Positions 8,499-63,903 of a DNA stretch of 64,000 bases are shown one piece after another (position 1 is the stretch's first letter; every line of letters starts with the position of its first letter). The notes under the pieces were generated by a model. It worked only from the letters and a program-made list of their open reading frames with translations, was not told the DNA's origin and ran no database searches. Origin of the DNA: Amycolatopsis lurida (GTDB taxonomy: Bacteria > Actinomycetota > Actinomycetes > Mycobacteriales > Pseudonocardiaceae); assembly GCF_900105055.1 (NCBI RefSeq), contig NZ_FNTA01000004.1, positions 3,255,501 through 3,319,500 of the forward strand, in the 5' to 3' direction. The position numbers were made by a program, and so were the translations under genes.

Positions 8499-8550
8499 GC
8501 CTTCAGCGGGCTAAACGCGACGCGCGCGACTTTAGCGGGCTAAACGTGAC
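8499..8550. repeat. Two palindromic repeat copies between rpsI and glmM
   Basis: Copies at 8499-8521 (CTTCAGCGGGCTAAACGCGA) and 8528-8550 (GACTTTAGCGGGCTAAACGT), same orientation, 29 bp apart, in the 255-bp gap. Confidence 0.85.
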
Positions 8551-19018: not shown

Positions 19019-19515
19019 CGAAGGACCCCTCTTCAAACTCGACGATGGCGGCCACCGTTGGTGCGCGTACTGGTGCGCGAGACAACCTATCGAACGTGGC
19101 CGGCGAAATCCGGACAACGCCGAGAACGGCCCCGGCCGGGGCCGTACGCATGTCGGGAGTGTAGGGCTCCGGCTCCGCCGACGTGCGTTTAGCGGGCTAA
19201 GTGCGATCCGGCGGCCCAGAGGCCCGACGTGCGTTTAGCCCCCTAATCGCGATCCGGCGGCCCAGACGGCCCGACATGCGTTTAGCCCCCTAATCGCGAT
19301 CCGGCGGTCGTGGGCACCCGGGGGCCCAAGGCTCCGGCGCGTCGCGATTAGGGGGCTAAAGTCGACGCGCCGGCAGCCGGTCTGAGGGGGCTCGGAGGCC
19401 TTTCCGAGGTCGCCTCTCCTACTTTTGCCGGTCTTTTTCCGACAGTCGATGATGTGGGCACCCGGGTTCGGTATAGGTTCCCCCGGGAGCAGACTCTCAG
19501 GGCAGGGGGAAGGCA
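19019..19515. other. eccC/eccD divergent intergenic region
   Basis: 497 bp with no convincing gene. It must contain the divergent promoters and holds four copies of the palindromic repeat at 19181-19368. I could not assign -35/-10 boxes with confidence. Confidence 0.6.
19181..19368. repeat. Cluster of four palindromic repeats
   Basis: Copies at 19181-19213, 19227-19260, 19274-19307 (same orientation, about 46-bp period) and 19340-19368 (opposite). Cores are TTTAGCGGGCTAA, TTTAGCCCCCTAA (twice) and ATTAGGGGGCTAAA. The first three end in GCGATCCGGCGG, so the conserved unit extends past the palindrome on one side. Confidence 0.9.
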
Positions 19516-22671: not shown

Positions 22672-23820
22672 CTACTTGGCGGGCTTGGGTTTCGGAGCGG
22701 GCTTCGCCGGCTTCTCGTCCTCACCGATCACGGGCGGGACGACCTGGCCGGGCTCACCGACCACATCGGACGGCTTCGACGCGGGCCGGGTCTTGGACTG
22801 GTGAGCCGTCTGGCCGCCCCCGCCCATGCCGCCCATCCCCATCATCGGCGCCATCCCCATCGGCATCATCGCCGAACCGGCCCCGGCGACCCCGTGCCCC
22901 TGAGCCGGAGCGGCCTGAACGGGCGCGATCTCCGGAACCAGCGCCTGCCCTTGCTCGATCAGCGGCTCGTGCGAGCCGGTCTGCCTGCCGTCGGCCGCGG
23001 ACGGCGACGTCGACTGCTCCTCGGCCGCCGCCCCGGAATCCGCCTCAGCGGGGGCCTTCTCGGGCACCGGCGCACCCTGTGCCTCGGAATCGTCGTGAAG
23101 CTTGAACTCGTCCTGCGGGTACCGGTGCGCGATCGAAATGCTCCGCGAGCCGGCATCAGGATCGTCGACGCCGTCGCAAAACCGCACGAAGCCTTCGAGG
23201 ACATTGCGCGCGGCTTCGTAGAGCGCTTTGGCCGACTCCTGCGCCTCCTCCAGCTGGGTCCGCGCACGCCGGACACCGCCGACCGGCAGCATCGCGGTCT
23301 CGGAGGTCAGTTCCGCCGTGTCGACCAGGACCTCGACGAGGTCGGTCAGGATGCGGCGGATCGACAGCACCAGTTCGTCGAGCGAGCTCGCCAGCGTGGT
23401 GAGGGCGTCTTCGACGTCGGAGCCCGCGGCGTTGATGTCCACGATGTACGCGACGAAGGCGTCAGCGTCCTTGCCGGACCACCCTGCGTCGAGACGTCCG
23501 AGGTCCTCTGACAGTTCCTTCGAGACGTTGCCCGCGGTCTTCGCCGCTTTCCGGAGCAGGTCTGCCTCGTCCTTCAAGTCCTCCCATCGCCCCACCAGCG
23601 GGGTCAGGTAGGCCTCGACCGGATCGATCAGCCCCAGATGCCCAGACAGCTCCGAAACGAAGGCGAGATGGGGCGCCGCGGACTCGATCAGCTCCTCACC
23701 GCCCGACCCCGTCGCGTTTAGCGGGCTAACCGCGATCGGGGGCGCCACGGGAGCCGCAGGGCGTGCGGCCGCCATCGGGTGCGGGATGGAATCCGTCGGG
23801 TTCTCCGATTCGGCGATCAT
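22672..23820 (-). CDS. WXG-domain T7SS substrate-like protein (382 aa)
   Basis: Residues 50-235 are a helical WXG-type domain with the turn LDAGWSGKDAD (W114). The C-terminal 150 residues are disordered, Pro/Ala/Lys-rich, with a Met/Gly stretch (MPMGMAPMMGMGGMGGGG) like that in the 819-residue protein. It lies inside the ESX-4-like locus, 5 bp downstream of the EspC-like gene, and is a probable secreted substrate. The N-terminal segment AVSPLNAT (residues 30-37) is encoded by a repeat copy at 23711-23737. Confidence 0.85.
   Translation of the reverse strand: MIAESENPTDSIPHPMAAARPAAPVAPPIAVSPLNATGSGGEELIESAAPHLAFVSELSGHLGLIDPVEAYLTPLVGRWEDLKDEADLLRKAAKTAGNVSKELSEDLGRLDAGWSGKDADAFVAYIVDINAAGSDVEDALTTLASSLDELVLSIRRILTDLVEVLVDTAELTSETAMLPVGGVRRARTQLEEAQESAKALYEAARNVLEGFVRFCDGVDDPDAGSRSISIAHRYPQDEFKLHDDSEAQGAPVPEKAPAEADSGAAAEEQSTSPSAADGRQTGSHEPLIEQGQALVPEIAPVQAAPAQGHGVAGAGSAMMPMGMAPMMGMGGMGGGGQTAHQSKTRPASKPSDVVGEPGQVVPPVIGEDEKPAKPAPKPKPAK
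23711..23737. repeat. Palindromic repeat copy inside the WXG-domain gene
   Basis: CGCGTTTAGCGGGCTAACCG followed by CGATC; core intact, read in the open frame as V-S-P-L-N-A. Confidence 0.85.
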
Positions 23821-23825
23821 GCGGT

Positions 23826-24140
23826 TCAGAGCTCCACTGCGCGCTTGATCGTCTGCGCGGCCTCGTCGTCGTGCCCGGCGTGCCGCGCGGTCACCGTGTG
23901 CAGGGCCTCCGACGCCGACCTCAGCGCGGCCGCGCCTTCCACCAGCTGCCGCCGGATGGCCTCGGCCGCACGCCCGTAGGACGCGCCGAGGCCCAGCTCC
24001 TCGCCCAGCGTGCCGTGGGACTCGACGGTGACGCCCTCACCCGTCACCTCCGCGGCCGCCAGGTCGAGTTCTCCGGCGGCCGCGTCCACCCGTTTCGCGT
24101 AGTCACCGACGACGTCGCCGTCGATCTTCAGGCCGGCCAC
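23826..24140 (-). CDS. EspC-like T7SS protein
   Basis: A small helical protein of about 104 residues of the ESX EspC type (LKIDGDVVGDYAKRVDAAAGEL at the start in part, no WXG). GTG 24140 is preferred because GGAGG lies 5 nt upstream; GTG 24155 is the longer alternative. It is encoded just upstream of the WXG-domain protein, an arrangement like EspC/EspA pairs, so the two probably form a secreted complex. Confidence 0.82.
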   Translation of the reverse strand: MAGLKIDGDVVGDYAKRVDAAAGELDLAAAEVTGEGVTVESHGTLGEELGLGASYGRAAEAIRRQLVEGAAALRSASEALHTVTARHAGHDDEAAQTIKRAVEL

Positions 24141-24207
24141 TGCACCTCCACTCACCCGATTCCGCTCGGGCGTTGAGACGCTCGCGCCGTCCGAGGGGTT
24201 CCCGTGA

Positions 24208-25818
24208 TCAGTTACCCGCCGGAGCCTGCGACTGCGTGGCGACCGAACCGGCCCTGTCGTCGATCGGCACCGTGTCGAACGTCCGGAGCACGTCCTGCGT
24301 GTTCAGCGAAGCGCCGGTGGGCAGGATCCTGACGATGGACTCGGGCGCGGGCACCCGCTTGTTCAGCCCGATCGAATCCGCCGTGACGGCGTCGGGGACG
24401 CCGTACCGGATCCCGCGATCGGAGATCAGCTGGATCGGCCCCTTGTCGAAGGTCTCCTTGCCGGTCGCCGACTGGACGACCGCGGCGAAGCCGGGCTCCA
24501 TGTAGAAGCTGTTGATCGGCGCGCCGACCGGGCCGGGGGTACCGATCTTGACGCCGGGCGCGGATCCGTCGGCGTTCCGGCCCTTCGGCAGCTTGTCGTC
24601 GACGAACACGGCCGTGTGCGCGTCCCGGGAGCCGCCTTCGCCCGCGATGGACCAGCTCAGGCAGGAGACCCGGGAGCCCTGGGTCGCGTTGAGCACCGTC
24701 GGCACGGTCTGGGGGTACGCGTCGAGCTCGACGACCTGGGAAACCCGCGTGAGGTTGCGGATCGCGGCCAGCGGCACGGACGTGACCGAGGTGCTGCCGT
24801 CATTCTTCCCGGTCTTCACGATGTCCGCGACGGCGGGCGAGATGGACTGGATGCCTTCCCTCGTAATGAGGTAGAAGTCCTTCCGCCCTTCGGCCTGCTC
24901 CGTGGAGAACACGTCGCCGACCTTCATGCCTTCGATCTCGTAGCTCGGGCTCTCGCCCTTGCCCGGGACGTCCGGGAGTTTCAGCTCCGGCACCTCGGGG
25001 ATCGCGTCCAGCAGGCCCTGCGAGATACCGCGGGGCTGATTGGGCAGCTTCAGCGCGGAACGGACGGCGTCGGCGTCAGGCTGGATCTCGGCCTTGACTG
25101 CGTTCGCGTTCCGGACGTTCGGGTCCGGCTTCTGCCGGTAGATCAGGTACTCACGGCCGTTGGCACCCTTGGCCAGCAACGCTTCGTTCTGGCCGAGCTC
25201 ACGGCTTCCGAGCTGCTTCACGCCCGCGTAGACGGTCGTCTCCGTCTTCGTGAGGTCCGGCTGAGGCACGGACGGGTCGTACATGACCTCGTCGCACACG
25301 CCCCAGTCCGGGGAGACCCGCTGAGTGTCCGTCGGCATCAGCTGCGGGCCGTTCGGAATACCCATGAGCTGGCCGCGGGGGATGTTCTTCAGCTGTTCAT
25401 CCGAGACGACTGTGGGGTTCTTCACTTCGGAGGCCTGTGCGGGCCCGGAAGGCTTGGCGCCCGCCTGCTGCGCCCCTTGTTTCGACTGCGCGATGATCAG
25501 CAGTCGCGCGGAGGCGAGGTTGAAGGTCGGGATCAATTTCTTCGGGTTCCCGGCCACGACGTAAACCGTTCCGGACTGCTCGCCGATGACGATGTTGCCC
25601 GCTTCCGGCACGGCAGGCTTCGGGCTCAGCAGGCCCCAGATGATGAAGACCAGGACGCCCAGCGCGGCCAGCACGACACCCACGATGGTCGCCCGCGTGT
25701 GCGTGCGCATCGGGTCGTGGAGCATGACGGCGTCGCGACGGACCAGCGCGGATTGCATCCGTCGCAGAACGAACTGATAAGCCTGAACTTGAGACTTAGT
25801 AGTCGGTGTTGATGGCAT
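24208..25818 (-). CDS. eccB: Type VII secretion protein EccB
   Basis: A 536-residue protein with a short cytoplasmic N-terminus carrying the conserved [21 protein letters not shown], one TM helix (about 43-65) and a large extracytoplasmic domain with the family cysteines and repeats. It forms part of the ESX membrane complex and contacts the periplasm-facing side. Divergent from eccE; downstream lies the EspC-like gene on the same strand. Confidence 0.96.
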
Positions 25819-25974
25819 TCTCGACCTACAGTCCTCCCCGTCGCGGTACGGTTCCGCAGGATAGCCGTACGGGGACCGTCTGGTGTGGGGTTTCTACCAA
25901 CTCCAGCTAGTGTCAAGTTCCTCGGGACCGGCTTTCCGGGTACGCAGCAAGCACGAGGGGAAGAGAAAGCGCGG

Positions 25975-27549
25975 ATGTCCGTCACCACTCCTCCACGTCC
26001 GCCCGGCCCTCCGGGGCCGCAACCTCCCGGTCGTCCGCCGGGGCCGCCGCCCAGGCCCAGCAGACCGGGTGGTCCGGGCGGCCCGGCCGGAGGCCCGGGA
26101 GGTCCCGGTGTTCCTCGCGGTCCGGGGGGCCCAGGTGGCCCTGGAGGGCCTGGCGGACCGCAGGGTCCCGGCGGCCCTGGTGGTCCCGGTGGTCCCAAGG
26201 GCCCCGGCGGACCTGGGGGTCCAGGAGGGCCCGGTGGGCCTGGAGGGCCAGGCGGTCCTCCGTCCGGCGGCCCCGGCCCGCAGTCCGGTCCTCCGCCCGC
26301 TCCGGCGGTACGGATCGCGGCGCCCGCGCGGCGCCGGACCGGCGGGATCAACCTCGGCCCGCTGCCCGTGGCGAACCTGGTCGTGCTCGAACTCGGGCTC
26401 GCGATCGGCCTCGTCCTGCTAGCGATCGACATGAAGCTGAAGTACGTCGCCATCGGCGTGCTCGCGTTCGCGATCATCATCGCGTTCCTGCGCTGGGGCG
26501 GCCGCTGGTTCACCCAATGGGCTGGACTCACCATGCGGTACATGTTCCGGTCGCACGATCGGGTGGCGAATCCGCTTCCGCCGAGCAGCATCGAGTCGCT
26601 CGCGGCCGAAGAGGACGCCGTCACCGGTCCCGACGACGCCCGCGTGAACCTGCTTCGCCTCGCCGTTCCCGATCTCGTCGTCGCGCACGGTGTCGACCAC
26701 GAGCGCCAGCAGGTCGGCATCGCGTGGAACGACGGCACGTGGACCGCCGTCCTGCTCGTCGAACCCGCGCCCGCGCTGATCACCCAGGCGGGTGGCGCGC
26801 CGAGCCTGCCGCTGTCCGCGCTCGCGCCGTGCCTCGAAGACCGCGGTGTGGTCCTCGACTCGATTCAGATGATCTGGCACTGCTACCCGGGCAGCGCCGC
26901 GCTTCCGTCGGACTCGCCCGCCCTCAGCTCCTACATGGAGGTGCTCGGCCCGCTCCCCGCGGCGGCGCGGCGGACGACATGGGTCGCCATCCGGCTCGAC
27001 CCGCGCCGGTGCCCGGCGGCCATCCGCGAACGCGGCGGCGGTGTCGTGGGTGCGCATCGCGCCCTGATCGGCGCGCTCTCGCGCGTGCGCAACGCCTTGG
27101 AATCGCAGGGCGTGCCGACCCGGCCGCTCGACCCGGACGAGCTGCTGCGCTCCAGCATTTCGGCCGCGGAACTGACCGCGGTCGCCGGTTCGCAGGGCAA
27201 GGTCGGTCTGCAGGAACGCTGGACCGGCGTCACCGCGGCAGGCATCGGTCACGCGAGCTACGCGATCACCAGCTGGCCGAAGGGCAAGATCAGCGGCAGC
27301 CTGAACGCGCTGACCAGTGTCCGCGCGCTGTCGGCGACGGTGGCGATGTCGATCTCGCCGTCCGCGGACGAAGGCAAGATCGGCCTGCGGGGAATCGTTC
27401 GCCTGAGCGCGCGGAACCCGCGTGAACTGGACGCGGCCGACCAGCGGCTGCAAGGCGTCTCGGACCGGCTGGGTGTGACGCTGACGCCGCTGCGCGGACT
27501 GCAGATCTCCGGGTTCTCCGCGACTTTGCCGATCGGAGGCACGGCATGA
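25975..27549 (+). CDS. eccE: Type VII secretion protein EccE with collagen-like N-terminus
   Basis: A 524-residue protein. Residues 1-105 are a Pro/Gly-rich tract with many consecutive G-x-y triplets ([10 protein letters not shown] type) resembling collagen-like sequence. Two TM helices (about 125-175) follow, then a cytoplasmic EccE domain. EccE is the peripheral membrane-complex subunit; M. tuberculosis ESX-4 lacks it, but other ESX-4 loci have it. ATG 25975 starts [11 protein letters not shown]. The stop overlaps the next gene's start by 4 bp. Confidence 0.88.
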
Positions 27550-28275: not shown

Positions 28276-28305
28276 GCGTCGACTTTAGCGGGCTAAGCGT
28301 GCTCT
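28276..28305. repeat. Palindromic repeat after the eccE operon
   Basis: GTCGACTTTAGCGGGCTAAG followed by CGTGCTCTG, between the last stop codon and the terminator hairpin. Confidence 0.85.
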
Positions 28306-28353: not shown

Positions 28354-28388
28354 CGCGTCACGGTTAGGCCGCTAAACGCGATCCGATG
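28354..28388. repeat. Palindromic repeat upstream of the DUF559-type gene
   Basis: GCGTCACGGTTAGGCCGCTA followed by AACGCGATCCG; the variant centre GCCG shows that the four central bases are free. Confidence 0.8.
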
Positions 28389-28512: not shown

Positions 28513-29475
28513 ATGACCAAACCCTTCGATTCGTCTCATCTTCCCGACGTCTTCCGTGGCTCGGAAGCGCGCAAGGCAGGCCTCATCACGGCCAGCCAGC
28601 TACGCGGCTCGAGTGTCCGACGGCTGTTCCAGGACGTCTACACACGCGCTGATGTCGAGGTCACGCACGAGTTGCGTTGTCGAGGAGCCGCGTTGCTGGC
28701 GCCTCCCGAAGCGGTGCTGACCGGGCGATCGGCCGCGACCGTTCAAGGTGTCGAGTTGGCGAAACCCCATGATCCGGTCGAGATGGTCGTACCGGAGAAA
28801 CACCGCTTCGGCCCGATAGTCGGTATCAAGGTTCGGCGCACCGAAGTCACGCCCGAGGAATCGAGGCCGTGGAACGGCATTCGGATCGCCCGGAAAAGCC
28901 GAATCGCGCTGGATCTGCTTCTCCGGCTTTCTCCCCGCAAATCCGGTTGGGTGCGACGGCTCCGCATCGGCGTGCCGGATCTGGACCAGTTCATGAGGGC
29001 CGAGAGCCTGACCGATCTGCACCTCAACAGGGAGTTCTACGGCCGCCGCAACAGGGGAATCCGCTTGGCCAGACATGCTTTACGACTGTCCGACCCTCGC
29101 GCGGAGTCGCCCCCGGAGTCGGAGCTTCGCATCGTCCTGGCCGCCGGCGGTATCACGGCGACGCCTCAGCTTGAGGTCACCGCCCGAACCGGCCATTTTC
29201 TCGCTCGCCTCGACCTGGGGGACGAAAAGTTCAAGGTCGCCGTCGAATACGACGGCCGATGGCACAACACACCGAAGCAACGAGCCCACGATCGCAAACG
29301 CCGAAGACGCGTGGAGGCCGAAGGCTGGCGTTTCGTCATCGTCACCGCGGAGGACCTGGCGAACGACTTCGAAGGCATCGTCGAGTCCGTCTGGCGGGCT
29401 CGCCGCCGCGGCGCGTTTAGCCCGCTAACCGCGCCGCGCCCGGATCAGAAGGGAGTGCGCATGGCGCGCGTTTGA
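28513..29475 (+). CDS. DUF559/VSR-like endonuclease-fold protein with AbiEi-type N-terminus
   Basis: A 320-residue protein. The N-terminus (LITASQLRGSSVRRLFQDVY, then GAALLAPPEAVLTGRSAATV) resembles AbiEi-antitoxin-like winged-helix regions. The C-terminal domain has the restriction-like core VAVEYDGRWHNTPKQRAHDR and GWRFVIVTAEDL of DUF559. No AbiEii nucleotidyltransferase partner lies nearby, so a toxin-antitoxin role is not supported. The codons from 29412 are a repeat copy (AFSPLTAP), and the final tail overlaps the convergent truA by 31 bp, so the C-terminal tail looks acquired. Confidence 0.82.
   Translation: MTKPFDSSHLPDVFRGSEARKAGLITASQLRGSSVRRLFQDVYTRADVEVTHELRCRGAALLAPPEAVLTGRSAATVQGVELAKPHDPVEMVVPEKHRFGPIVGIKVRRTEVTPEESRPWNGIRIARKSRIALDLLLRLSPRKSGWVRRLRIGVPDLDQFMRAESLTDLHLNREFYGRRNRGIRLARHALRLSDPRAESPPESELRIVLAAGGITATPQLEVTARTGHFLARLDLGDEKFKVAVEYDGRWHNTPKQRAHDRKRRRRVEAEGWRFVIVTAEDLANDFEGIVESVWRARRRGAFSPLTAPRPDQKGVRMARV
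29412..29434. repeat. Palindromic repeat copy in the 3' end of the DUF559-type gene
   Basis: CGCGTTTAGCCCGCTAACCG; core intact, read in the open frame as A-F-S-P-L-T-A. Confidence 0.85.
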
Positions 29476-30347
29476 TCGGCACGGGAGGCAAGCTCCGCGT
29501 CCGGCGGGTAGTCGACCGCCATCAGCGTCAGGCCGTGTGCGGGGGCCACCGCACTGTCGCGCGTCCGGCTTTCCAAAACGTCGCCGGGCCAGCCCAGCGG
29601 ACGGCGGCCGTCACCGACCAAGAGCAGCGCTCCCACCAGGCTGCGCACCATCGAGTGGCAGAACGCGTCGGCGGAGACGGCGACCTCTACTGCATGCGGC
29701 CCGGTCCGCCGCCATTCGAGCCGCTGCAGCTCGCGAATGGTGGTCCCACCTTCTCGCTGCTTGCAGAAGGCCGCAAAATCCTGAAGGCCCAGGAGAGCCG
29801 TCGATGCCTCGTTCATCGCGTCGATCGATAGCGGACGGCCCCAGGCCAGGGTGTCGTGACGCCGCAACGGATCCACGCCCCAGGGCGCGTCCGAAACGCG
29901 GTAAAGGTAGTGACGCCGCACGGCCGAGAACCGCGCGTCGAACCCAGGCGCCGCGACCCGGGCATCCAACACCCGTACGTCGCCCGGCAGGTAGCGATTC
30001 CAGCGGTGACGCATCCGCCCCAGGTCAGGAATGCCCTGCTCGTCCAGTTCCAGACGACCGGATCGCGTTTTGCCCGCTAAAGGCGACGCGTCGACGTGGA
30101 CCACCTGGCCGGCCGCGTGCACACCGGCATCGGTGCGGCCGGCGACGACAACGGACTTCGGGACCGAAGCTCCCGGAGGCTGCTTCGCGAGCGCCTCTTC
30201 GAGGACTCCCTGCACCGTGCGCCGTCCGGGCTGCCGCGCCCAACCGGAGAAATCGGTGCCGTCGTAGGAAACATCCAGACGCAGACGAACGAGCCCGCCC
30301 TCCGCAGTGGGAGTGGCGGGCTCGTCCGGGGTGTTCGGTGCCGTCAG
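29445..30347 (-). CDS. truA: tRNA pseudouridine(38-40) synthase
   Basis: Converts uridines 38-40 of tRNA anticodon arms to pseudouridine. About 300 residues; catalytic Asp in VVAGRTDAGVHAAGQ, RHYLYR and the C-terminal SFCHSM-type motif (ADAFCHSMVRSLVG) are present. No ATG, GTG or TTG lies between the rplQ stop (30352) and the conserved DVSYDGTDFSG, so a CTG at 30347 with AAGGA 8 nt upstream is proposed. A repeat copy at 30061-30090 encodes SPLAGKTRS in the variable loop after HVDA. It follows rplQ with a 4-nt gap and ends convergent with the DUF559-type gene. Confidence 0.92.
   Translation of the reverse strand: MTAPNTPDEPATPTAEGGLVRLRLDVSYDGTDFSGWARQPGRRTVQGVLEEALAKQPPGASVPKSVVVAGRTDAGVHAAGQVVHVDASPLAGKTRSGRLELDEQGIPDLGRMRHRWNRYLPGDVRVLDARVAAPGFDARFSAVRRHYLYRVSDAPWGVDPLRRHDTLAWGRPLSIDAMNEASTALLGLQDFAAFCKQREGGTTIRELQRLEWRRTGPHAVEVAVSADAFCHSMVRSLVGALLLVGDGRRPLGWPGDVLESRTRDSAVAPAHGLTLMAVDYPPDAELASRADQTRAMRTPF
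30061..30090. repeat. Palindromic repeat copy inside truA
   Basis: GATCGCGTTTTGCCCGCTAA followed by AGGCGACGCG. The TTTAG arm is TTTTG here; on the coding strand an in-frame TAA becomes AAA (Lys). Confidence 0.85.
30291..30323 (-). promoter_or_regulatory. Inverted repeat at the 5' end of truA
   Basis: GAGCCCGCC and its exact complement, 15 nt apart, within the first codons of truA. It could fold in the mRNA and modulate truA translation or rplQ 3' end formation; no U-tract follows. Confidence 0.4.
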
Positions 30348-34643: not shown

Positions 34644-34677
34644 ACCTGCGTTTAGCGGGCTAATCGCGATCCGGCGG
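34644..34677. repeat. Palindromic repeat upstream of infA
   Basis: ACCTGCGTTTAGCGGGCTAA followed by TCGCGATCCGGCGG: a full-length consensus copy. Confidence 0.9.
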
Positions 34678-34779
34678 GCTCGCGACCTGGGGGCGCTCGG
34701 CGGACGAGGTGCACCCGATGGAGGCAGCCGGCAGGCACCTCAACGGCGGGCCCGGACGCTCCCCCGACAAGCGGACGCA

Positions 34780-34846
34780 CTTGCGTTTAGCGGCCTAACT
34801 GCGATCTGTGGGCGCACTTGCGTTTAGCGGCCTAAACGCGATCCGG
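34780..34846. repeat. Tandem pair of palindromic repeats downstream of map
   Basis: Copies at 34780-34808 (TTTAGCGGCCTAACTGCGAT) and 34817-34846 (TTTAGCGGCCTAAACGCGAT), same orientation. Both share the variant centre CGGC, suggesting local duplication. Confidence 0.9.
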
Positions 34847-38517: not shown

Positions 38518-38543
38518 AGCGCGTTTAGCGGGCTAATCGCGCT
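38518..38543. repeat. Palindromic repeat that supplies a stop codon
   Basis: GCGTTTAGCGGGCTAATCGC followed by GCTC; the minus-strand gene 38533-39303 ends with GAT-TAG inside the core. Confidence 0.88.
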
Positions 38544-39303
38544 CTTTCGCGCCAGGGTCCGGCGGAGGCGCGAAGGCCGAATAGTCCGGTTTCTCGGGCT
38601 GCGGCTCCGGTGGGAGCACCATGATGGAGATGCCGTCCTTCGGTGTGGGCATGTCCGCGAGACTCGGGTCGCCACTCATCGGGACTTCGCCATCCTGGAC
38701 GCGGTGGCTCATGACGGCCGCGCCCACCGCGGCCGCGACCGCGGCGAAGAGGGCCCACATCCCCGCTTCGAGAGTCAGGGTCACCTTGAGGTCGTCGCCC
38801 AACTGGCGTCCGGATCCCAGCGTGGCGACGCTGCTGACAGCTCCGGCGAGGAACACCGCCGCGATAGTGGTGAGCCACCTGTCCAAAGTGCCTGGACGTT
38901 GACGCCCGGCGACGCGCGTACTGACGACCGTGGCCGCCAGCAGGAGCGCCGCGGCGACCAAGAGCGGGATACCGATGGGCGCCGTCGACGTGGTGAAGGC
39001 AGGTTGGCCGGTCTGATAAGCCGTCGTGTCCCAAGCTCCTTGCACGAACACGATCTCGAGCAGGTCGCTGGCGTCGAAGCCGAACCGATGTTCGGTCTTG
39101 AAGTGCGGGAAGAAGCAGCCCACGAGGGTCAGCACCAGGGCCAAGGCGGCCAAGCCCGCTGCGACGAGCCTGCGGGGCTCAAGCCGACCGGACCGCACCG
39201 GTTCGTCCGGGGGATCCATGGGCCCTGAAACCGATACGACCATCGGCGGGGCGTCCGGCTGCTGCTGGAAGGGCTGCGGATCCTGCCCGGGAGGTATGGC
39301 CAC
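38533..39303 (-). CDS. Four-TM membrane protein of unknown function (256 aa)
   Basis: A Pro-rich N-terminus, four predicted TM helices (about 45-65, 108-125, 140-160, 175-195) and a cytoplasmic Pro-rich tail. Between TM1 and TM2 is an extracytoplasmic loop (FFPHFKTEHRFGFDASDLLE). No family recognised. GTG start with AAGGA upstream. The TAG stop lies within a palindromic repeat. It is separated from the LysE gene by that repeat. Confidence 0.75.
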   Translation of the reverse strand: MAIPPGQDPQPFQQQPDAPPMVVSVSGPMDPPDEPVRSGRLEPRRLVAAGLAALALVLTLVGCFFPHFKTEHRFGFDASDLLEIVFVQGAWDTTAYQTGQPAFTTSTAPIGIPLLVAAALLLAATVVSTRVAGRQRPGTLDRWLTTIAAVFLAGAVSSVATLGSGRQLGDDLKVTLTLEAGMWALFAAVAAAVGAAVMSHRVQDGEVPMSGDPSLADMPTPKDGISIMVLPPEPQPEKPDYSAFAPPPDPGAKERD

Positions 39304-39358: not shown

Positions 39359-39556
39359 ACCTGCGTTTCGCGGGCTAACCGCGATCTGGACGCCGGGCAC
39401 CTGGGCGACCGACGGATCGCGTTTAGCCCGCGAAACGCAAGTCGGGTACCGGGAGGGCTACCCGCGCCCGGATCACGATTAGGGGGCTAAACGCAGGTGG
39501 GCGCGCAAGCGCACGCCCGAGGGACCAGATCGCGATTAGCCCGCGAAACGCAGGTC
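39359..39556. repeat. Cluster of four palindromic repeats
   Basis: 39359-39390 (TTTCGCGGGCTAA), 39412-39443 (TTTAGCCCGCGAAA), 39471-39499 (ATTAGGGGGCTAAA) and 39527-39556 (ATTAGCCCGCGAAA). Three copies carry a T-to-C or A-to-G type change in one arm, so some drift occurs where there is no coding constraint. Confidence 0.88.
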
Positions 39557-54689: not shown

Positions 54690-54725
54690 CCCAGACCGCG
54701 TTTAGCGGGCTAAACGCGGTCTGGG
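54690..54725. repeat. Perfect extended palindromic repeat
   Basis: CCCAGACCGCGTTTAG, CGGG, then the exact complement: a 16-bp stem, the longest in the window. The flanks differ from the standard GACCTGCG/GATCCGG ends but match each other. Confidence 0.9.
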
Positions 54726-54858: not shown

Positions 54859-55419
54859 ATGTCGGCCGAGTTCGAACAGCTGGTCGCGGAATTCGACAAG
54901 TTCCAGTCCAAGCTCCAGAACGTCGACGATCGCTTGGCGAACATCGGCGGGATGCAAGACGAGCTGAGCAGGCTCGAGGCGACGGCGACCTCGCCCGACC
55001 GTTCGGTGACCGTGGTGGCGGGCCCCGGCGGCGCCATCATGGACGTCCGGTTCACCGAGGAGGCCCTGCGCCAGCGCCCCGAGGGCCTCTCGGCCGCGCT
55101 GATGTCGACCATCCAGCAGGCCGTGGCCGAATCGGCCCGTAAGCAGGCCACCATCGTCGAAGAGCACATGGGCGACGACCTCCACCTCGTCGACCAGGTG
55201 CTGGAGACCCAGGCGGAGCTGTTCGGGACCACGGTCGAGGACCTGAAGGCGCAGATGGAGGACGCGCCCGCGCGGGAACGGGCCGAGCAGCCCGACGACT
55301 ACTCCGAGCGCTCGGTCCTGCGGTCCGAAGCGGAACCGCAGCAGCCCACCCCGCCGCCGGCCGCCGCCTCCGACGGCGACCGTTTCCTGAAGAACCTGTT
55401 CGACGAAGACGACCGCTGA
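54859..55419 (+). CDS. YbaB/EbfC-family, EspL-like protein
   Basis: A 186-residue protein. Residues 1-110 resemble the YbaB/EbfC fold (coiled N-terminus, then SVTVVAGPGGAIMDVRFTEE), followed by a Pro-rich acidic tail ending FLKNLFDEDDR. YbaB-like proteins also occur in ESX loci (EspL of ESX-1). GGGAGG precedes the ATG. It heads a plus-strand group with an EspC-like gene and a WXG-type gene, so an ESX chaperone or stabilising role is more likely than a nucleoid role. Confidence 0.82.
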   Translation: MSAEFEQLVAEFDKFQSKLQNVDDRLANIGGMQDELSRLEATATSPDRSVTVVAGPGGAIMDVRFTEEALRQRPEGLSAALMSTIQQAVAESARKQATIVEEHMGDDLHLVDQVLETQAELFGTTVEDLKAQMEDAPARERAEQPDDYSERSVLRSEAEPQQPTPPPAAASDGDRFLKNLFDEDDR

Positions 55420-55427
55420 CCGGCGCC

Positions 55428-55456
55428 GATCGCCTTTAGCGGGCTGAACGCGATTT
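55428..55456. repeat. Palindromic repeat after the EspL-like gene
   Basis: CGCCTTTAGCGGGCTGAACG followed by CGATTTG, with one change in the CTAA arm (CTGA). It begins 8 bp after the stop. Confidence 0.8.
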
Positions 55457-55546
55457 GAAGGTCCGGGGAACCGGGCACGGCGCCTCCGGGTCCAAGGGGC
55501 CGATCACGACGATCCGCACCGGAAAGGTGCTTGAGGAGGGTCACTG

Positions 55547-55906
55547 ATGGGCGAGGGACACGCGGTGGTCATCAACGCTCTGCGCACTTACTCGGGCAAG
55601 CTCGCGCAGGACGTCCGGGTCCCGGCCGAGGTGGGGCGGCTGGTGCAGCAGTCCGACGTCGGTGACGAATCCTGGGGCGTGGTCGGCCTGTTCGTGAAGA
55701 ACGAATACACGGGGATGCTCACCGACCTGCAGGATCTGCTGATCGAGATGTCGGCGGGGCTGACCGCGGCGTCGGAGAAGCTCGGCAGCGCGGCCACCAT
55801 CTACGAGCGCAACGAAGAGGACAACGTCAAGTCGCTCAACGAGATCCTCAAGATGCTCGAGCAGCCCGCGCAATCGCGGACACCGAAAATCGGACCGGCC
55901 AAGTAA
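55547..55906 (+). CDS. EspC-like T7SS protein (119 aa)
   Basis: A helical protein with a D-E-S-W-G-V-V-G segment at about residue 47 and a predicted helical hairpin, of the ESX EspC/WXG size class. ATG with GAGGAGGG upstream. It lies 15 bp before the WXG-type gene, like EspC-EspA-type pairs, so the two are probably secreted together. Confidence 0.8.
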   Translation: MGEGHAVVINALRTYSGKLAQDVRVPAEVGRLVQQSDVGDESWGVVGLFVKNEYTGMLTDLQDLLIEMSAGLTAASEKLGSAATIYERNEEDNVKSLNEILKMLEQPAQSRTPKIGPAK

Positions 55907-55921
55907 AAAGGGGGCACGATC

Positions 55922-57109
55922 GTGGCCGACCAGAAGATCACCGGCGAGCACACCGGCATCAAGATCAACGACTACAACCCGGACGTCATCCGCACGGACA
56001 AGATGCTGACGTCATTGCCCGGTCCGCTCGGCAGCGGGGTCAGCACCTTCAACACGGTCAAGAGCGCGACCGCGGACGGCTTTCAGGCGAGCGACATCGG
56101 CACCATCGCCGCGAGCGGGGCCGGTTTCATCAGTTCCTGCGCCGGCGTCGCGGACATCGCGAGCGATCCGATCGGCTGGCTGGTCGGCCAGGGGCTCAAC
56201 TTCCTGATGAACGTGTGCCAGCCGATCCAGGACGCCATCCACATGGTCAGCGGCGACGGTCCGGCGTTGTCGAACGCGGCGAGCAACTTCAACAACATCG
56301 GTGTCTGGCTGCAGAAGTACAGCAAGGAATTCAGCGACAACGCGGTGCGGTCACTGTCCCAATGGGACGGTGACGCGGCGAACGCGGCCGGCGAGAAACT
56401 GGCGAAGTTCGGGCAGGGCATCGACGGGATCGCGGCACAGGCCGGGGACATCGCGCAACTGCTGCAGATCTCCAGCATGGTGATGACGGTGATCGAGGAG
56501 TTCATCAAGGCGATCCTCACCGAGTTCATCACCTGGCTGATCATGATCTGGATCCCCGCGCTGGCCGCGGCCGTCCCGACCTGCGGCGGCTCGACGGCGA
56601 CGGCGGGCGGGCTGACGGCCACCCGCGCGGTCTCCACGACGTCGAAGGTGCAGAAGTTCCTGAACAAGCTTCGCCAGCTGCTCGACAAGATCAAGCAGTT
56701 CCTCGGCAAGCTCAAGGAGTTCTTCGGCAAGTGGAAGGGCAACTACAAGGACCTGATGGCCCACAACAAGGCCGCCGGGCAGCTGGCGGCGGGGCCGGGC
56801 GCGTCCGCGTGGGGCAAGTTCGCTTCGAAGGACGGCGCCATGGGCGGCAGGCTCGCGGACGGGTTCGGCGAGCGGATGACGTCGGCCACGAAGAAGGCCG
56901 CGTTGAACACCGTTGGGCTCGGCAAAGCCACAAACCCGGACGGCAGCTGGAAGACGCCCGAGACGGGCAGGGAGAAGGGCGAAGTCGCGGCCGGCGTCAC
57001 CGGCAAGGTCGGCACGTACACGTCGGGCGGGATCAAGGCCGGCGAGTACGGTTCCGTGGGTGATGACGAGCAGACGACCGAGGAGACCAGCGACAACCTG
57101 GACTTCTGA
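55922..57109 (+). CDS. WXG-type T7SS protein with hydrophobic segments (395 aa)
   Basis: The N-terminal half is helical with the WXG-type turn SLSQWDGDAANAAG (W148). Hydrophobic stretches follow near 85-100 and 185-220 (VIEEFIKAILTEFITWLIMI), then an amphipathic Lys-rich segment (FLNKLRQLLDKIKQFLGKLK) and a Gly-rich C-terminus with no toxin domain that I recognise. GTG start with AGGGGG upstream. It could be a pore-forming or scaffold substrate. The downstream membrane protein gene starts 3 bp after its stop. Confidence 0.8.
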   Translation: MADQKITGEHTGIKINDYNPDVIRTDKMLTSLPGPLGSGVSTFNTVKSATADGFQASDIGTIAASGAGFISSCAGVADIASDPIGWLVGQGLNFLMNVCQPIQDAIHMVSGDGPALSNAASNFNNIGVWLQKYSKEFSDNAVRSLSQWDGDAANAAGEKLAKFGQGIDGIAAQAGDIAQLLQISSMVMTVIEEFIKAILTEFITWLIMIWIPALAAAVPTCGGSTATAGGLTATRAVSTTSKVQKFLNKLRQLLDKIKQFLGKLKEFFGKWKGNYKDLMAHNKAAGQLAAGPGASAWGKFASKDGAMGGRLADGFGERMTSATKKAALNTVGLGKATNPDGSWKTPETGREKGEVAAGVTGKVGTYTSGGIKAGEYGSVGDDEQTTEETSDNLDF

Positions 57110-57112
57110 GCT

Positions 57113-57718
57113 GTGACCGGGTGGATCGTCGCCATCGTCGCGGTGGCGCTGCCTCTCGTGCTGGCCGCTTGGTGGATCGCCGCCGGGGCGGCGAAGAAAC
57201 GCGGGCTGGCCAAGCTGGCCAAGGAACGGGGCTGGGACTTCTTCAGCGGCGCCCGTCTCGGGTCCTCGGGCGGGCGGCACGAGCAGGCCGCAACGGGTCG
57301 GGCGCCCGCCCCCTTGCGGCGGACCGGCGAGTCGATCGACCAGGCCGTGGTGGGCACGCACCGCGGGGTGCCCTTCGGCGTCTACCGCTACCACCAGCCG
57401 GGTGCCGGGTTCCGTCAGGACGGCACCCGGGAGTCCGGTTCGCTGCGGACGGTCGTGCACGTCGAGGTGGGGACGGCCATGCCCGACTGCACGCTCTCCA
57501 TCAGCGGATCCGAAGTGGACTGCTCGAATCCCGGATTCGTGCTGCGGCCCGAGGTCCGCGAATGGCTGCTGGCGAACGTCGGCCGGTGCCGCGAGTTCCA
57601 CACGTCCGGCCGGACGGTGGCGGTGGTGCCGAAGTCGTTGCCGAGCGGGCCCAGGCTCCTGCGCACCTTGGACTACCTGACCGACGTCGCCGGCCAGGTA
57701 CCCCTCAATCGCGTTTAG
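57113..57718 (+). CDS. Membrane-anchored protein of unknown function (201 aa)
   Basis: An N-terminal TM helix (GWIVAIVAVALPLVLAAWWI), a basic segment, then a soluble domain (YRYHQPGAGFRQDGTRESGS) with two cysteines. No family recognised. It is the last gene of the EspL-like cassette and may anchor or protect against the WXG-type protein; inferred only. The final codons (N-R-V-stop) lie inside the repeat at 57709-57737. Confidence 0.75.
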   Translation: MTGWIVAIVAVALPLVLAAWWIAAGAAKKRGLAKLAKERGWDFFSGARLGSSGGRHEQAATGRAPAPLRRTGESIDQAVVGTHRGVPFGVYRYHQPGAGFRQDGTRESGSLRTVVHVEVGTAMPDCTLSISGSEVDCSNPGFVLRPEVREWLLANVGRCREFHTSGRTVAVVPKSLPSGPRLLRTLDYLTDVAGQVPLNRV

Positions 57719-57737
57719 CGGGCTAAACGCGATCCGG
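57709..57737. repeat. Palindromic repeat supplying stop codons to two convergent genes
   Basis: TCGCGTTTAGCGGGCTAAAC followed by GCGATCC. Both the plus-strand gene (57113-57718) and the minus-strand gene (57723-58223) end ...R-V-TAG inside this one palindrome. Confidence 0.92.
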
Positions 57738-58223
57738 CACGGCCGGGGCCAGGGACTTCGCGAAGTAGTGATGCGCGAAGGGGTCGTCGTTGAAGGGCTC
57801 GACCGTCTCGTAACCGAGGCGCGCGTACAGGGCCCTCGCCTCGACGAGGTCGTCGCGGGTGTCGAGGCGGATCAGCGTGGCGCCGAGGCCGCGGGCGACG
57901 TCTTCGGCGGCGGCCACGAGCAGCGCCGCGCCGCCCTTGCCGCGTTCGGACTTCCGCAGGAAGACGCGTTTGAGTTCGGTGATCTCGGGCGTCATCACCC
58001 GGAGCCCGGCACAGCCCGCGAGCACCCCGTCGCGCCACGCGAGAAGGAAGGCACCGGTCGGCGGGACCATGTCCCTGCTGTGCTGCTCCTCGAGCAGGAC
58101 GTCGAGCTCGTCTTCGGTGACCTGGCGCTCGTAGTAGCGGGACGCGATCTCGTCCAAGTACTCGCGCAGCAGCTGGGCGGCGTCCGGGTGATCGACGGGG
58201 GTGACTTCAAAGATCCAGGTCAT
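57723..58223 (-). CDS. GNAT family N-acetyltransferase
   Basis: A 166-residue GCN5-type acyltransferase with the acetyl-CoA-binding VFLRKSERGKGGAALLVAAA and the C-terminal ARALYARLGYETVEPF. Substrate unknown. ATG 58223 starts MTWIFEVTPVDHPDA; a longer frame from 58250 is possible. The stop codon is within a palindromic repeat. Confidence 0.9.
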   Translation of the reverse strand: MTWIFEVTPVDHPDAAQLLREYLDEIASRYYERQVTEDELDVLLEEQHSRDMVPPTGAFLLAWRDGVLAGCAGLRVMTPEITELKRVFLRKSERGKGGAALLVAAAEDVARGLGATLIRLDTRDDLVEARALYARLGYETVEPFNDDPFAHHYFAKSLAPAVPDRV

Positions 58224-58268
58224 GGCTACATTCTGCCCATCCCTGGCCACCGGTTTTCGCCTGCCGCC

Positions 58269-58299
58269 AGATCGCGATTAGGGGGCTAAACGCAGGTCA
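58269..58299. repeat. Palindromic repeat abutting the MmpS-like gene stop
   Basis: AGATCGCGATTAGGGGGCTA followed by AACGCAGGTCA; the minus-strand gene ends TGA directly joined to the CCTGCG end of the repeat. Confidence 0.9.
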
Positions 58300-58788
58300 G
58301 GAGGGGGCGAGGCGGCCGGCGCAGGTGGCGACCTCGCCCGGGGCCGACTTCTCCGAGGTGACGACGGCGCCGCCCACGGCCACCCGGCATTCGACGGCGC
58401 CCTCGCCCTGCCCCATCAGCTGGACGGTCGGCGGGGTGCCGGTGTTCTTCCACGTGAGCTCTTTGCGCCACGGCAGCCTCACCTGCAGCTCCTGGTGCAC
58501 GAGCCCCAGCCCGTTCGAGTCGTAGACCACGGTCGCGGTCCCCGTCCCGGCCAGCTCGTAGGCGATCCGCCAATCGTTCGACACCGGCTGCGGCTGCGCC
58601 TGGCTGAGCGTCCGCGTGATCGTGCGATCCGGCCCCCGCGACGGCGCGGCCTCGGCCGGCTCGCCGACCACGGCCACGGTCTCGGCCTGCGGCTCCTCAC
58701 CGCCGTTGAGCAGCACCACACAGGTCGCGAGCGCGGCCACCACGATCCCCGCGATGGCGATACGCCCGATCAGTTGTCTGTCAGCCAT
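58297..58788 (-). CDS. MmpS-like membrane-anchored protein
   Basis: A 163-residue protein: one N-terminal TM helix (RIAIAGIVVAALATCVVLLN), a disordered linker and a beta-sandwich MmpS-type domain (RIAYELAGTGTATVVYDSNG; QVRLPWRKEL). MmpS proteins are accessory to MmpL/RND lipid exporters; no MmpL gene lies in the window. GAGGAGA precedes the ATG. Confidence 0.78.
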   Translation of the reverse strand: MADRQLIGRIAIAGIVVAALATCVVLLNGGEEPQAETVAVVGEPAEAAPSRGPDRTITRTLSQAQPQPVSNDWRIAYELAGTGTATVVYDSNGLGLVHQELQVRLPWRKELTWKNTGTPPTVQLMGQGEGAVECRVAVGGAVVTSEKSAPGEVATCAGRLAPS

Positions 58789-63038: not shown

Positions 63039-63903
63039 TCTTTCTCCCTGTTTTCGCTAGCGAAGCGCCAGACAATTGGCACACCTCTCCCTTTTCGTGC
63101 AGGCGTCTCCACCGCGGATCGAAGGGAAAGCAATCAGCCGCCGGTTCCACCTGGGAACCGTTGCGGCACAGTGGAAAGCGTCAGCGTACGAGGAAATGTC
63201 ACAGCCGTTGTGAATACGCTGATCGAGTAAGCCCGGAAAGGGTCAGGAATACATACACAGCGCGCTGGCTTGCTGCCGCAAGTCAACGTGCCGGCGCCAC
63301 ACCAAGGCGACTGGGGATTGCATGGGCGAAATACTCGTGTGAAGCCGTTGGAGTGTCAATCTCGTGATCAAAGAATGAGACATGCCACGGCAGAGTGAAT
63401 TTCCCACGATGCGGATAGGCCGTTGAGCCGTATGGGTGGCGGTTTTCCGAGTATTGGGAATTAGGCCACCTGGGCGCACTACCGCACGTCACAACGGACC
63501 AGTAACCCACATCCAACCCAGCCGAGGCCGTTATGGTTTCGTTACGCTTTCCCGGGAACTCTGCTGCGTCCCGGGCCCTACGAGGCGGCGCGAGCGATCC
63601 GATACCGGGACTTCGTCGCGAGAAGAGGCCAAGGCGAACGGGCCCAGTCGAGGCAGCCGACCCCCGCACTCGCCGAGGCGTGGTGGCGCCCTTCCCGAAC
63701 ACCCGCTGACCTGCGGCCCCTCCGCCGGATCGCGATTAGGGGGCTAAACGCAGGTCGAGCGAAGAGGCGGGCGGCGGGCGGGCAGATCGCGATTAGCCCG
63801 CTAAACGCAAGAGGCCACCGGATCGCGTTTAGGAGGCTAAACGCGGTCCGGTGGCATCGGGCGCGGGCAGGTGACAGATCGCGATCAGGGGGCTAAACGC
63901 AGG
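63039..63903. other. Gene-poor region with repeats
   Basis: 865 bp without a convincing gene. 63240-63560 is noticeably less GC-rich than the rest. A TTCGCTAGCGAA palindrome (63053-63064) lies just upstream of the SBP56-like gene. Four palindromic repeats occupy the right end. Confidence 0.6.

Follow-up and report, generated by a model that had tools for sequence, protein, structure and literature searches.

A palindrome providing the stop codons of two convergent genes belongs to a regional repeat family linked to an AbiEi/Vsr-like gene in Amycolatopsis

Two convergent genes of Amycolatopsis lurida take their stop codons from one palindrome, and this sharing is a side product of a repeat family that is regional, conserved and linked to a gene. 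The palindrome lies in a window of 64,000 nucleotides (C4:3255501-3319500 of the 9.05-Mb genome G000), and positions without a contig name refer to this window. On balance, it is probably one of about 100 sites of a two-part system with an AbiEi/Vsr-like protein, spread or kept near the gene for that protein. In a more detailed form, to which we give somewhat less than an even chance, the AbiEi-Vsr fusion would seed, edit and occupy helically phased palindromes in the surroundings of its gene and would mark the ribosomal-protein region over genus-level divergence; the site sequence and a DNA-binding residue would change together while the positions stay.

The double-stop palindrome

The following features meet at the shared stop:
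57113..57718, + strand, 201-residue gene without a Pfam family, ending R-V-TAG in the palindrome
57708..57733, no strand, double-stop palindrome, source of the TAG of both genes
57723..58250, - strand, GNAT acetyltransferase gene (PF00583), ending R-V-TAG in the palindrome

The palindrome reads as a perfect inverted repeat with 12-bp arms and a 2-nt centre (ATCGCGTTTAGC-GG-GCTAAACGCGAT), and its inner part is composed of TTTAGC (57714-57719), the GG centre and GCTAAA (57722-57727). The last codons of the 201-codon frame are CGC-GTT-TAG with the TAG at 57716-57718; the GNAT frame ends with the same three codons on the minus strand, where the stop appears as CTA at 57723-57725. Both TAGs therefore lie in the repeat, as the initial annotation had claimed. 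The repeat itself was also real, while the limits given for it (57709-57737) have to be replaced by 57708-57733. A similar case named at 38518-38543 was borne out: the TAG of the frame 38533-39303(-) sits in TTTAGCGGGCTAAT (38524-38537), and a Pfam search of this frame gave no match.

The annotation further held that the repeat sets both C-termini and proposed comparing orthologues with and without it. Of the 80 genus genomes, 66 contain relatives of the GNAT gene; 30 loci, including that of the own genome, were compared. All eleven repeat-free loci have a TGA stop at query residue 168 instead of 175 (e.g. ...AKALS before the stop), whereas 17 of the 19 repeat-bearing loci end DRV-stop inside the palindrome. 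G002 (locus L090) ends SRLAG-stop in another frame of the palindrome, and L094 is counted among the 19 with its GNAT end unread owing to an in-frame TGA near the frame start. Stop positions thus differ with the repeat: the repeat-free relatives end seven residues earlier, and the GNAT gene has gained about seven residues and its stop from the repeat. The 201-residue gene was found in six of the 19 repeat-bearing loci; the match reaches residue 201 in three of them (own genome included) and residue 198 in the other three, at least two of which have a further palindrome behind the first. In the remaining 13 loci the palindrome is present and this gene was not found. Overall, the claim on both C-termini is supported, for the GNAT gene by its relatives and for the 201-residue gene on thinner evidence.

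Copies in the window

The window contains 38 matches to the core TTTAGCNNGCTAAA with at most three mismatches, against a mean of 3.31 and a maximum of 10 in shuffled sequences. None of 100 shuffles reached 38, and a chance origin of the copies was rejected. Besides those around the nuclease-like gene described below, we list the following (no strand):
8499..8547, copy pair 29 bp apart
19185..19363, four-copy array with spacings of 46, 47 and 66
34648..34839, three copies, two of them 37 bp apart
38521..38540, source of the TAG of frame 38533-39303(-)
39363..39551, four-copy array with spacings of 56, 56 and 57
54698..54717, lone symmetric copy, without a counterpart in G044, whose orthologous interval is shorter by 155 bases
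58274..58293, asymmetric form ATTAGGGGGCTAAA, 3 bases from the stop of gene 58297-58788(-)
63732..63900, four-copy array with spacings of 57, 36 and 56, the last copy 3 bases from a called stop codon

ESX/type VII secretion-like genes (EccE, WXG100 and EspB/PPE-like) and a YbaB-like protein gene are found among the sites at 22672-27549 and 54859-57109.

Confinement to one chromosomal region

The exact core occurs 22 times in G000, with 21 copies located within 316 kb (3.094-3.410 Mb) and one at 4.743 Mb; a reversed control pattern had no occurrence in this genome. Of 18 control stretches, each 20 kb long, 16 had no core with at most two mismatches. REP/RAYT repeats are dispersed over the whole genome; with 21 of 22 exact cores in 316 kb and most control stretches empty, a genome-wide REP family was rejected here. 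The site density in G000 drops with growing distance from the nuclease-like gene, starting at about 5 per 10 kb and ending at 0.1. Genes of the block include those for ribosomal proteins, rpoBC, groEL and guaAB, recognised by eye from translations, and the L17 and TruA-like genes are backed by Pfam.

Two other repeat families were seen in the control stretches, both of them in at least two. Arrays built from a 21-bp unit like GATCACGCGAGTTACGCC... are found in L039 (G000:C4:3484369-3484634) and L045 (G000:C4:5658790-5658918); those in L039 are two arrays in opposite orientation, and the period equals two helical turns. A composite hairpin, GTTGCGAAAGCCACTTTCGCAAC...GTTGCGAAAGTGGCTTTCGCAAC, is present at G000:C4:957485-957748, 3102314-3102366 and 3119476-3119528, two of these being inside the palindrome cluster.

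With a rule of 20 bases and at most three mismatches, which missed at least one core site (28284), we counted 102 copies in 459 kb of G000. As judged with a crude gene caller, 89 of them are intergenic and 22 have divergent contexts; convergent gaps, which make up about 14.5% of the intergenic bases, contain 36, and none touches a start codon. Seventeen copies overlap a stop codon or lie within 3 bases of one, and 57708-57733 is the single copy that provides two stops at once.

The intergenic position and the excess in convergent gaps would suit bidirectional transcription terminators, and the RNA hairpin at 57708-57733 is indeed more stable than its shuffles (z -2.3 and -2.6). We nevertheless regard such a role as very improbable. 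No terminator-like site was found in 57500-58000, and the intrinsic terminator was dropped for want of a T tract there; the copies in divergent contexts do not fit; among asymmetric copies, one was no better than shuffles (z -0.6) and another was better (z -3.0). Terminators would also leave the confinement and the helical phasing of the sites unexplained.

Helical phasing of the spacings

Centre-to-centre spacings of neighbouring copies peak near 37, 47, 56, 67 and 78 bp. The period was 10.4 bp in G000 (R=0.66, n=43), 10.0 bp in G044 (R=0.64, n=61) and 10.6 bp in G058 and G031 together (R=0.715, n=20), and in each case none of 2000 jittered sets equalled the observed value. When only mutually unlike, non-redundant spacers were kept (42 of 146), R was 0.52 at 10.3 bp (p=0.001). 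Spacings of 32 and 42 in G001 and G011 represent a shifted phase. In G003 the spacings are mostly one unit of 27-28 bp with a best period of 13.9, giving no support for 10.4 bp when taken alone.

We read the phasing as selection on protein-protein contact along the helix. Helical phasing is unexpected of terminators or neutral repeats, and it is not predicted by a model of spreading alone.

The same block and the same places in relatives

At least one exact core was found in 31 of the 80 genus genomes and at least three in 29. The cluster stretches of G044, G002, G031, G058, G005, G001 and G011 all correspond in alignment to one and the same G000 block. This also holds for 12 of 13 outlying stretches, chosen by record name, including Saccharomonospora, Prauserella and family members known only as MAGs; the remaining one (L236) matches the block weakly.

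Many sites also keep their places. Compared with random intergenic placement, site groups lie in intervals orthologous to those of G000 sites in 16 of 20 cases in G031 (6.1 expected), 18 of 32 in G058 (5.9), 7 of 8 in G005 (2.6), 6 of 8 in G011 (2.0) and 7 of 9 in G001 (3.0). For G003, which has a variant motif, the count was 11 of 20 (3.7 expected); 43 of its 80 loosely matched sites are inside called genes, so some of the G003 sites may be chance matches. Copy numbers in the arrays are unlike between sister species.

In G000, dnaA is located at 4.074 Mb and the palindrome cluster 0.66-0.98 Mb away. In G000, G002, G031, G049 and G058, the main cluster is always on the same side of dnaA, at a distance of about 0.55-1.0 Mb; it has a different position relative to dnaA in G014, G020, G001 and G011, for which genome sizes were partly rounded. 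Outlying sites were seen at 4.743 Mb in G000, 2.075 Mb in G014, 8.293 Mb in G020, 6.89-7.02 Mb in G049 and at several places in G058. The group at G000:C4:4743229-4743397, that at G049:C1:6.89-7.02 Mb and the clusters of G001 and G011 are at about the mirror distance across dnaA, and minor or main site groups at such a distance are expected from inversions around oriC.

The position relative to dnaA, together with the confinement, the phasing, the kept orthologous places and the same block in other genera, might speak for sites that, once bound, fold, segregate or insulate the ribosomal-protein/rpoBC domain as matS/MatP does in its own domain, the nuclease domain being irrelevant or part of a non-catalytic binder. 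The abundant sites of G003, where nuclease residues are changed, would agree with this. We think it unlikely, though with real weight, that organisation of the domain is the whole explanation, since the cluster position relative to dnaA differs in the four genomes named above and G041 keeps most of the block genes with neither the nuclease-like gene nor sites. The system is therefore dispensable.

A nuclease-like gene linked to the sites

We screened for genes missing in the palindrome-free G041 and present in at least two of G031, G058, G005 and G003. Of the three candidates obtained, the one at 28513-29475 is located inside the palindrome cluster, and we propose its product as the cognate protein of the sites. 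The features around it are:
28284..28297, no strand, core with one mismatch upstream of the nuclease-like gene
28360..28379, no strand, second palindrome upstream of the gene
28513..29475, + strand, AbiEi-like winged-helix plus Vsr/EDxHD-like nuclease gene, 320 aa
29413..29432, no strand, palindrome in the 3' end of the gene, encoding part of the C-terminal tail (GAFSPLTAP)
30065..30084, no strand, core within the TruA-like coding sequence

The immediate neighbours of the gene encode a protein of 240 aa matched by neither Pfam nor NCBIfam and the TruA-like pseudouridine synthase, and no AbiE nucleotidyltransferase toxin was recognised among these two. Orthologues with the same two neighbours and 54-66% identity were found in G003, G058, G001, G011, G005 and Saccharomonospora L196, and an orthologue is also present in L184; in G041 the place of the gene is a 71-bp gap.

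Orthologues were then defined over 390 family genomes by E<1e-90, a cut-off set after seeing the gap from 2e-95 to 9e-78. Within the genus, the orthologue is present in 28 of the 29 genomes with at least three exact cores and in 4 of the 51 others (Fisher p=3e-16). G003 is one of these four, the only one examined, and has a variant palindrome family. Outside the genus, where counts are strand matches (one symmetric site gives two) and not sites as in the genus, 12 of 13 genomes with any exact match have the orthologue. So do all ten genomes with at least two strand matches, against 12 of the 300 others (p=3e-13); both tests overstate independence because gene and sites share a syntenic block and descent. 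Ten of the 22 orthologue bearers outside the genus have no exact match, as counted with the exact core only.

The presence of sites tracks the gene with one clear exception, G031, which has 23 exact sites in 200 kb and no orthologue. Its gap at the place of the gene contains other open frames, read by eye as insertion-sequence remnants, and the best match elsewhere is a 46% paralogue. The gene is therefore not needed for the persistence of the sites, at least for a while.

The gene also stays close to the sites. It is within the cluster in all nine gene-bearing clusters compared, and ten clusters have their medians at a distance of 9-57 kb, taken to the gene or, in G031, to its empty place, when the outlying sites of G020, G049 and G058 are left out. 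In 26 of 30 loci, a site precedes the gene by about 150-240 bp. The core at the downstream distance of 30065-30084 recurs in different genera, with 29 of 30 loci having it; as it lies in the TruA-like gene, coding constraint and site constraint may coincide there. G058 has two copies of the gene, grouped in the tree (99/97). Two near-matching sites (one mismatch each) adjoin the second copy, which is located at 5.14 Mb, and exact sites at 4.89-4.97 Mb are among the matches listed for this genome.

Gene and palindromes might also be separate residents of a conserved block that share only their ancestry, with another protein binding the palindromes. Their common syntenic block, the G031 sites without the gene and the ten bearers without an exact match are all compatible with this. 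We consider it quite unlikely in view of the second gene copy of G058 with its adjoining sites, the site upstream of the gene in most loci and the covariation of protein residue 31 with the sites described below.

Of the paralogues in G000, one with 26% identity is located at 3.069 Mb, where no comparable local repeat family was found when a single motif was counted. Another with 44% identity at G000:C4:5014742-5015578 may own a different site family; matches of similar strength are present in many genomes without these palindromes.

The 320-aa protein

In the C-terminal part, the Pfam matches (PF18741/DUF559) were to MTES_1575 nuclease at E=6e-9, just under the cut-off, and to DUF559 over the cut-off. 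PADLOC matched AbiEi weakly (E=7.5e-4), and NCBIfam had no family for the protein. The predicted structure has a mean pLDDT of 87. In this model, the first ~200 residues resemble the AbiEi antitoxin 6y8q (Z 7.2, rmsd 6.8, 177 aligned) and 1zel (Z 6.0, rmsd 5.3, 196 aligned), the latter being the best Foldseek match (E 3.5e-4). The model thus points to an AbiEi-like fold, although Z values of 6-7 alone would not decide. Residues 197-309 resemble Vsr 1cw0 (Z 10.3, rmsd 2.5, 105 aligned), and the C-terminal domain resembles I-Bth0305I 3r3p (Z 11.2, rmsd 3.1, 96 aligned). E245, D247 and H251 are invariant in 24 sequences and D234 nearly so. The C-terminal domain is thus predicted to have a Vsr-like fold with a conserved acidic/His motif and could be considered a putative nuclease. 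In G003, E202 is changed to K and D234 to N, so cutting may be dispensable.

Residue 31, next to helix 27-30 of the model, is R where the arms flanking TTT are mostly CG. It is Q in G072 and G003, which have GC arms, and L in G002, which has changed arms. This covariation is suggestive and would reflect about two events, as G072 and G003 group in the tree.

Lineage-wide change of the palindromes

The TTTAGC core, in the form TTTAGC-SS-GCTAAA, is the consensus in each palindrome-bearing stretch read, and the outer arms vary by lineage. G003 carries the variant TTTTGCSSGCAAAA family with GC arms in the same region. Among one-to-one orthologous palindromes, 17 of 18 are not identical in G000 and G002, two genomes about 87-94% alike over their larger aligned pieces; for G000 and G044 the count is 10 of 18. 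One half-site base is A in 43% in G002 where it is C in 97% in G000. At some orthologous places of G000 and G044, the centre is swapped between CCC and GGG (ATTAGCCCGCTAAA in G044, ATTAGGGGGCTAAA in G000).

Such lineage-wide changes, the unequal arrays of sister species, the density dropping away from the gene and the duplicated gene in G058 with near-matching sites next to it could all be produced by a purely selfish repeat that hops locally, driven by the nuclease and without any host role, like REP/RAYT with another enzyme family. We would give this a low though still appreciable probability. Phasing across unlike spacers and kept orthologous places are unexpected of junk, and the apparent catalytic changes in G003 also speak against it.

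The half-site TTTAGC/GCTAAA is identical to that of the KorB operator OB of RK2, given as TTTAGC-G-GCTAAA in a passage of PMC11790492, and the palindromes might be taken for sites of a ParB/KorB-family clamp. A second ParB_N match was found in 5 of 16 palindrome-bearing genomes and in none of 8 others. We hold this to be exceedingly improbable: the centre has 2 nt instead of 1, four of the five second matches are weak (E 3e-7 to 8e-7), and the other 11 palindrome-bearing genomes have only the strong ParB_N protein common to all 24, encoded in G000 next to dnaA and parS. On these counts, we rejected an additional ParB_N protein accompanying the sites. Identity with parS was rejected too, the exact parS (GTTTCACGTGAAAC) being located at 4.078 Mb, outside the cluster.

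Discussion

In the two-part system that we favour, the N-terminal winged helix would bind each palindrome as a dimer, and adjacent bound dimers would touch, for which spacings in whole helical turns are required. The binding of inverted repeats by AbiEi and Rv2827c, described in a passage of PMC7319586, makes this half plausible. The protein would then act mainly near its own gene and help to copy or retain the sites, perhaps by nicking or cutting followed by repair from a nearby copy. A passage of PMC3943268, in which I-Bth0305I forms a dimer on its target of almost 60 bp, makes the nuclease half plausible. Density falling with distance, growth of arrays and lineage-wide sequence changes would follow from such local action. 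By their sequence, copies turn into the stop codons of neighbouring genes because the core holds TAG and TAA in two of three frames per strand and because the copies are mostly intergenic, enriched in convergent gaps and absent at start codons; the double stop represents the most extreme example.

The system can be compared with several known ones. REP/REPIN with RAYT (TnpA-REP), as described in excerpts of the literature, also has short extragenic palindromes in arrays and an associated enzyme gene, and the repeats studied here are likewise numerous, short and largely extragenic. Their proposed enzyme is AbiEi-like plus Vsr-like instead of a tyrosine transposase, and the copies stay within a few hundred kb, show helical phasing and often occupy orthologous places. 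In matS/MatP, short palindromic sites are also repeated in only one chromosomal domain, matS occurring 23 times in the 800 kb of the E. coli Ter macrodomain according to a passage of PMC3330122; the sites here are far denser, form phased arrays, lie near ribosomal genes and not the terminus, and would be served by another protein.

As for the two halves of the protein, AbiEi antitoxins and Rv2827c act at their own promoters and are likened to it by the modelled fold of the N-terminal part. A passage of PMC7319586 gives their sites as 23-bp inverted repeats 3 or 13 bp apart, a difference of 10 bp. The present case differs in the lack of a toxin among the two immediate neighbours, in about 100 sites over 300 kb and in the nuclease-like fusion. 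I-Bth0305I, an EDxHD homing endonuclease, and the Vsr endonucleases are similar in the modelled fold of the C-terminal domain. Unlike them, the gene here is a free-standing chromosomal one at a single syntenic place in the lineages read, and it is linked to a population of palindromes where I-Bth0305I has one intron site. In the open-licence full-text literature we found no description of these repeats or of a link between DUF559 proteins and palindromes.

If the proposed system is true, it would be a second type of enzyme-plus-palindrome system beside REP/RAYT, local rather than genome-wide, and would explain how repeats write C-termini and stop codons. It would provide a natural example of a DNA-binding protein that co-evolves with about 100 sites on the chromosome, as well as a testable function for the poorly characterised DUF559/MTES_1575 proteins, whose paralogues perhaps own other local repeats. 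For the antibiotic-producing actinomycetes, it would represent a route to the marking of a chromosome domain.
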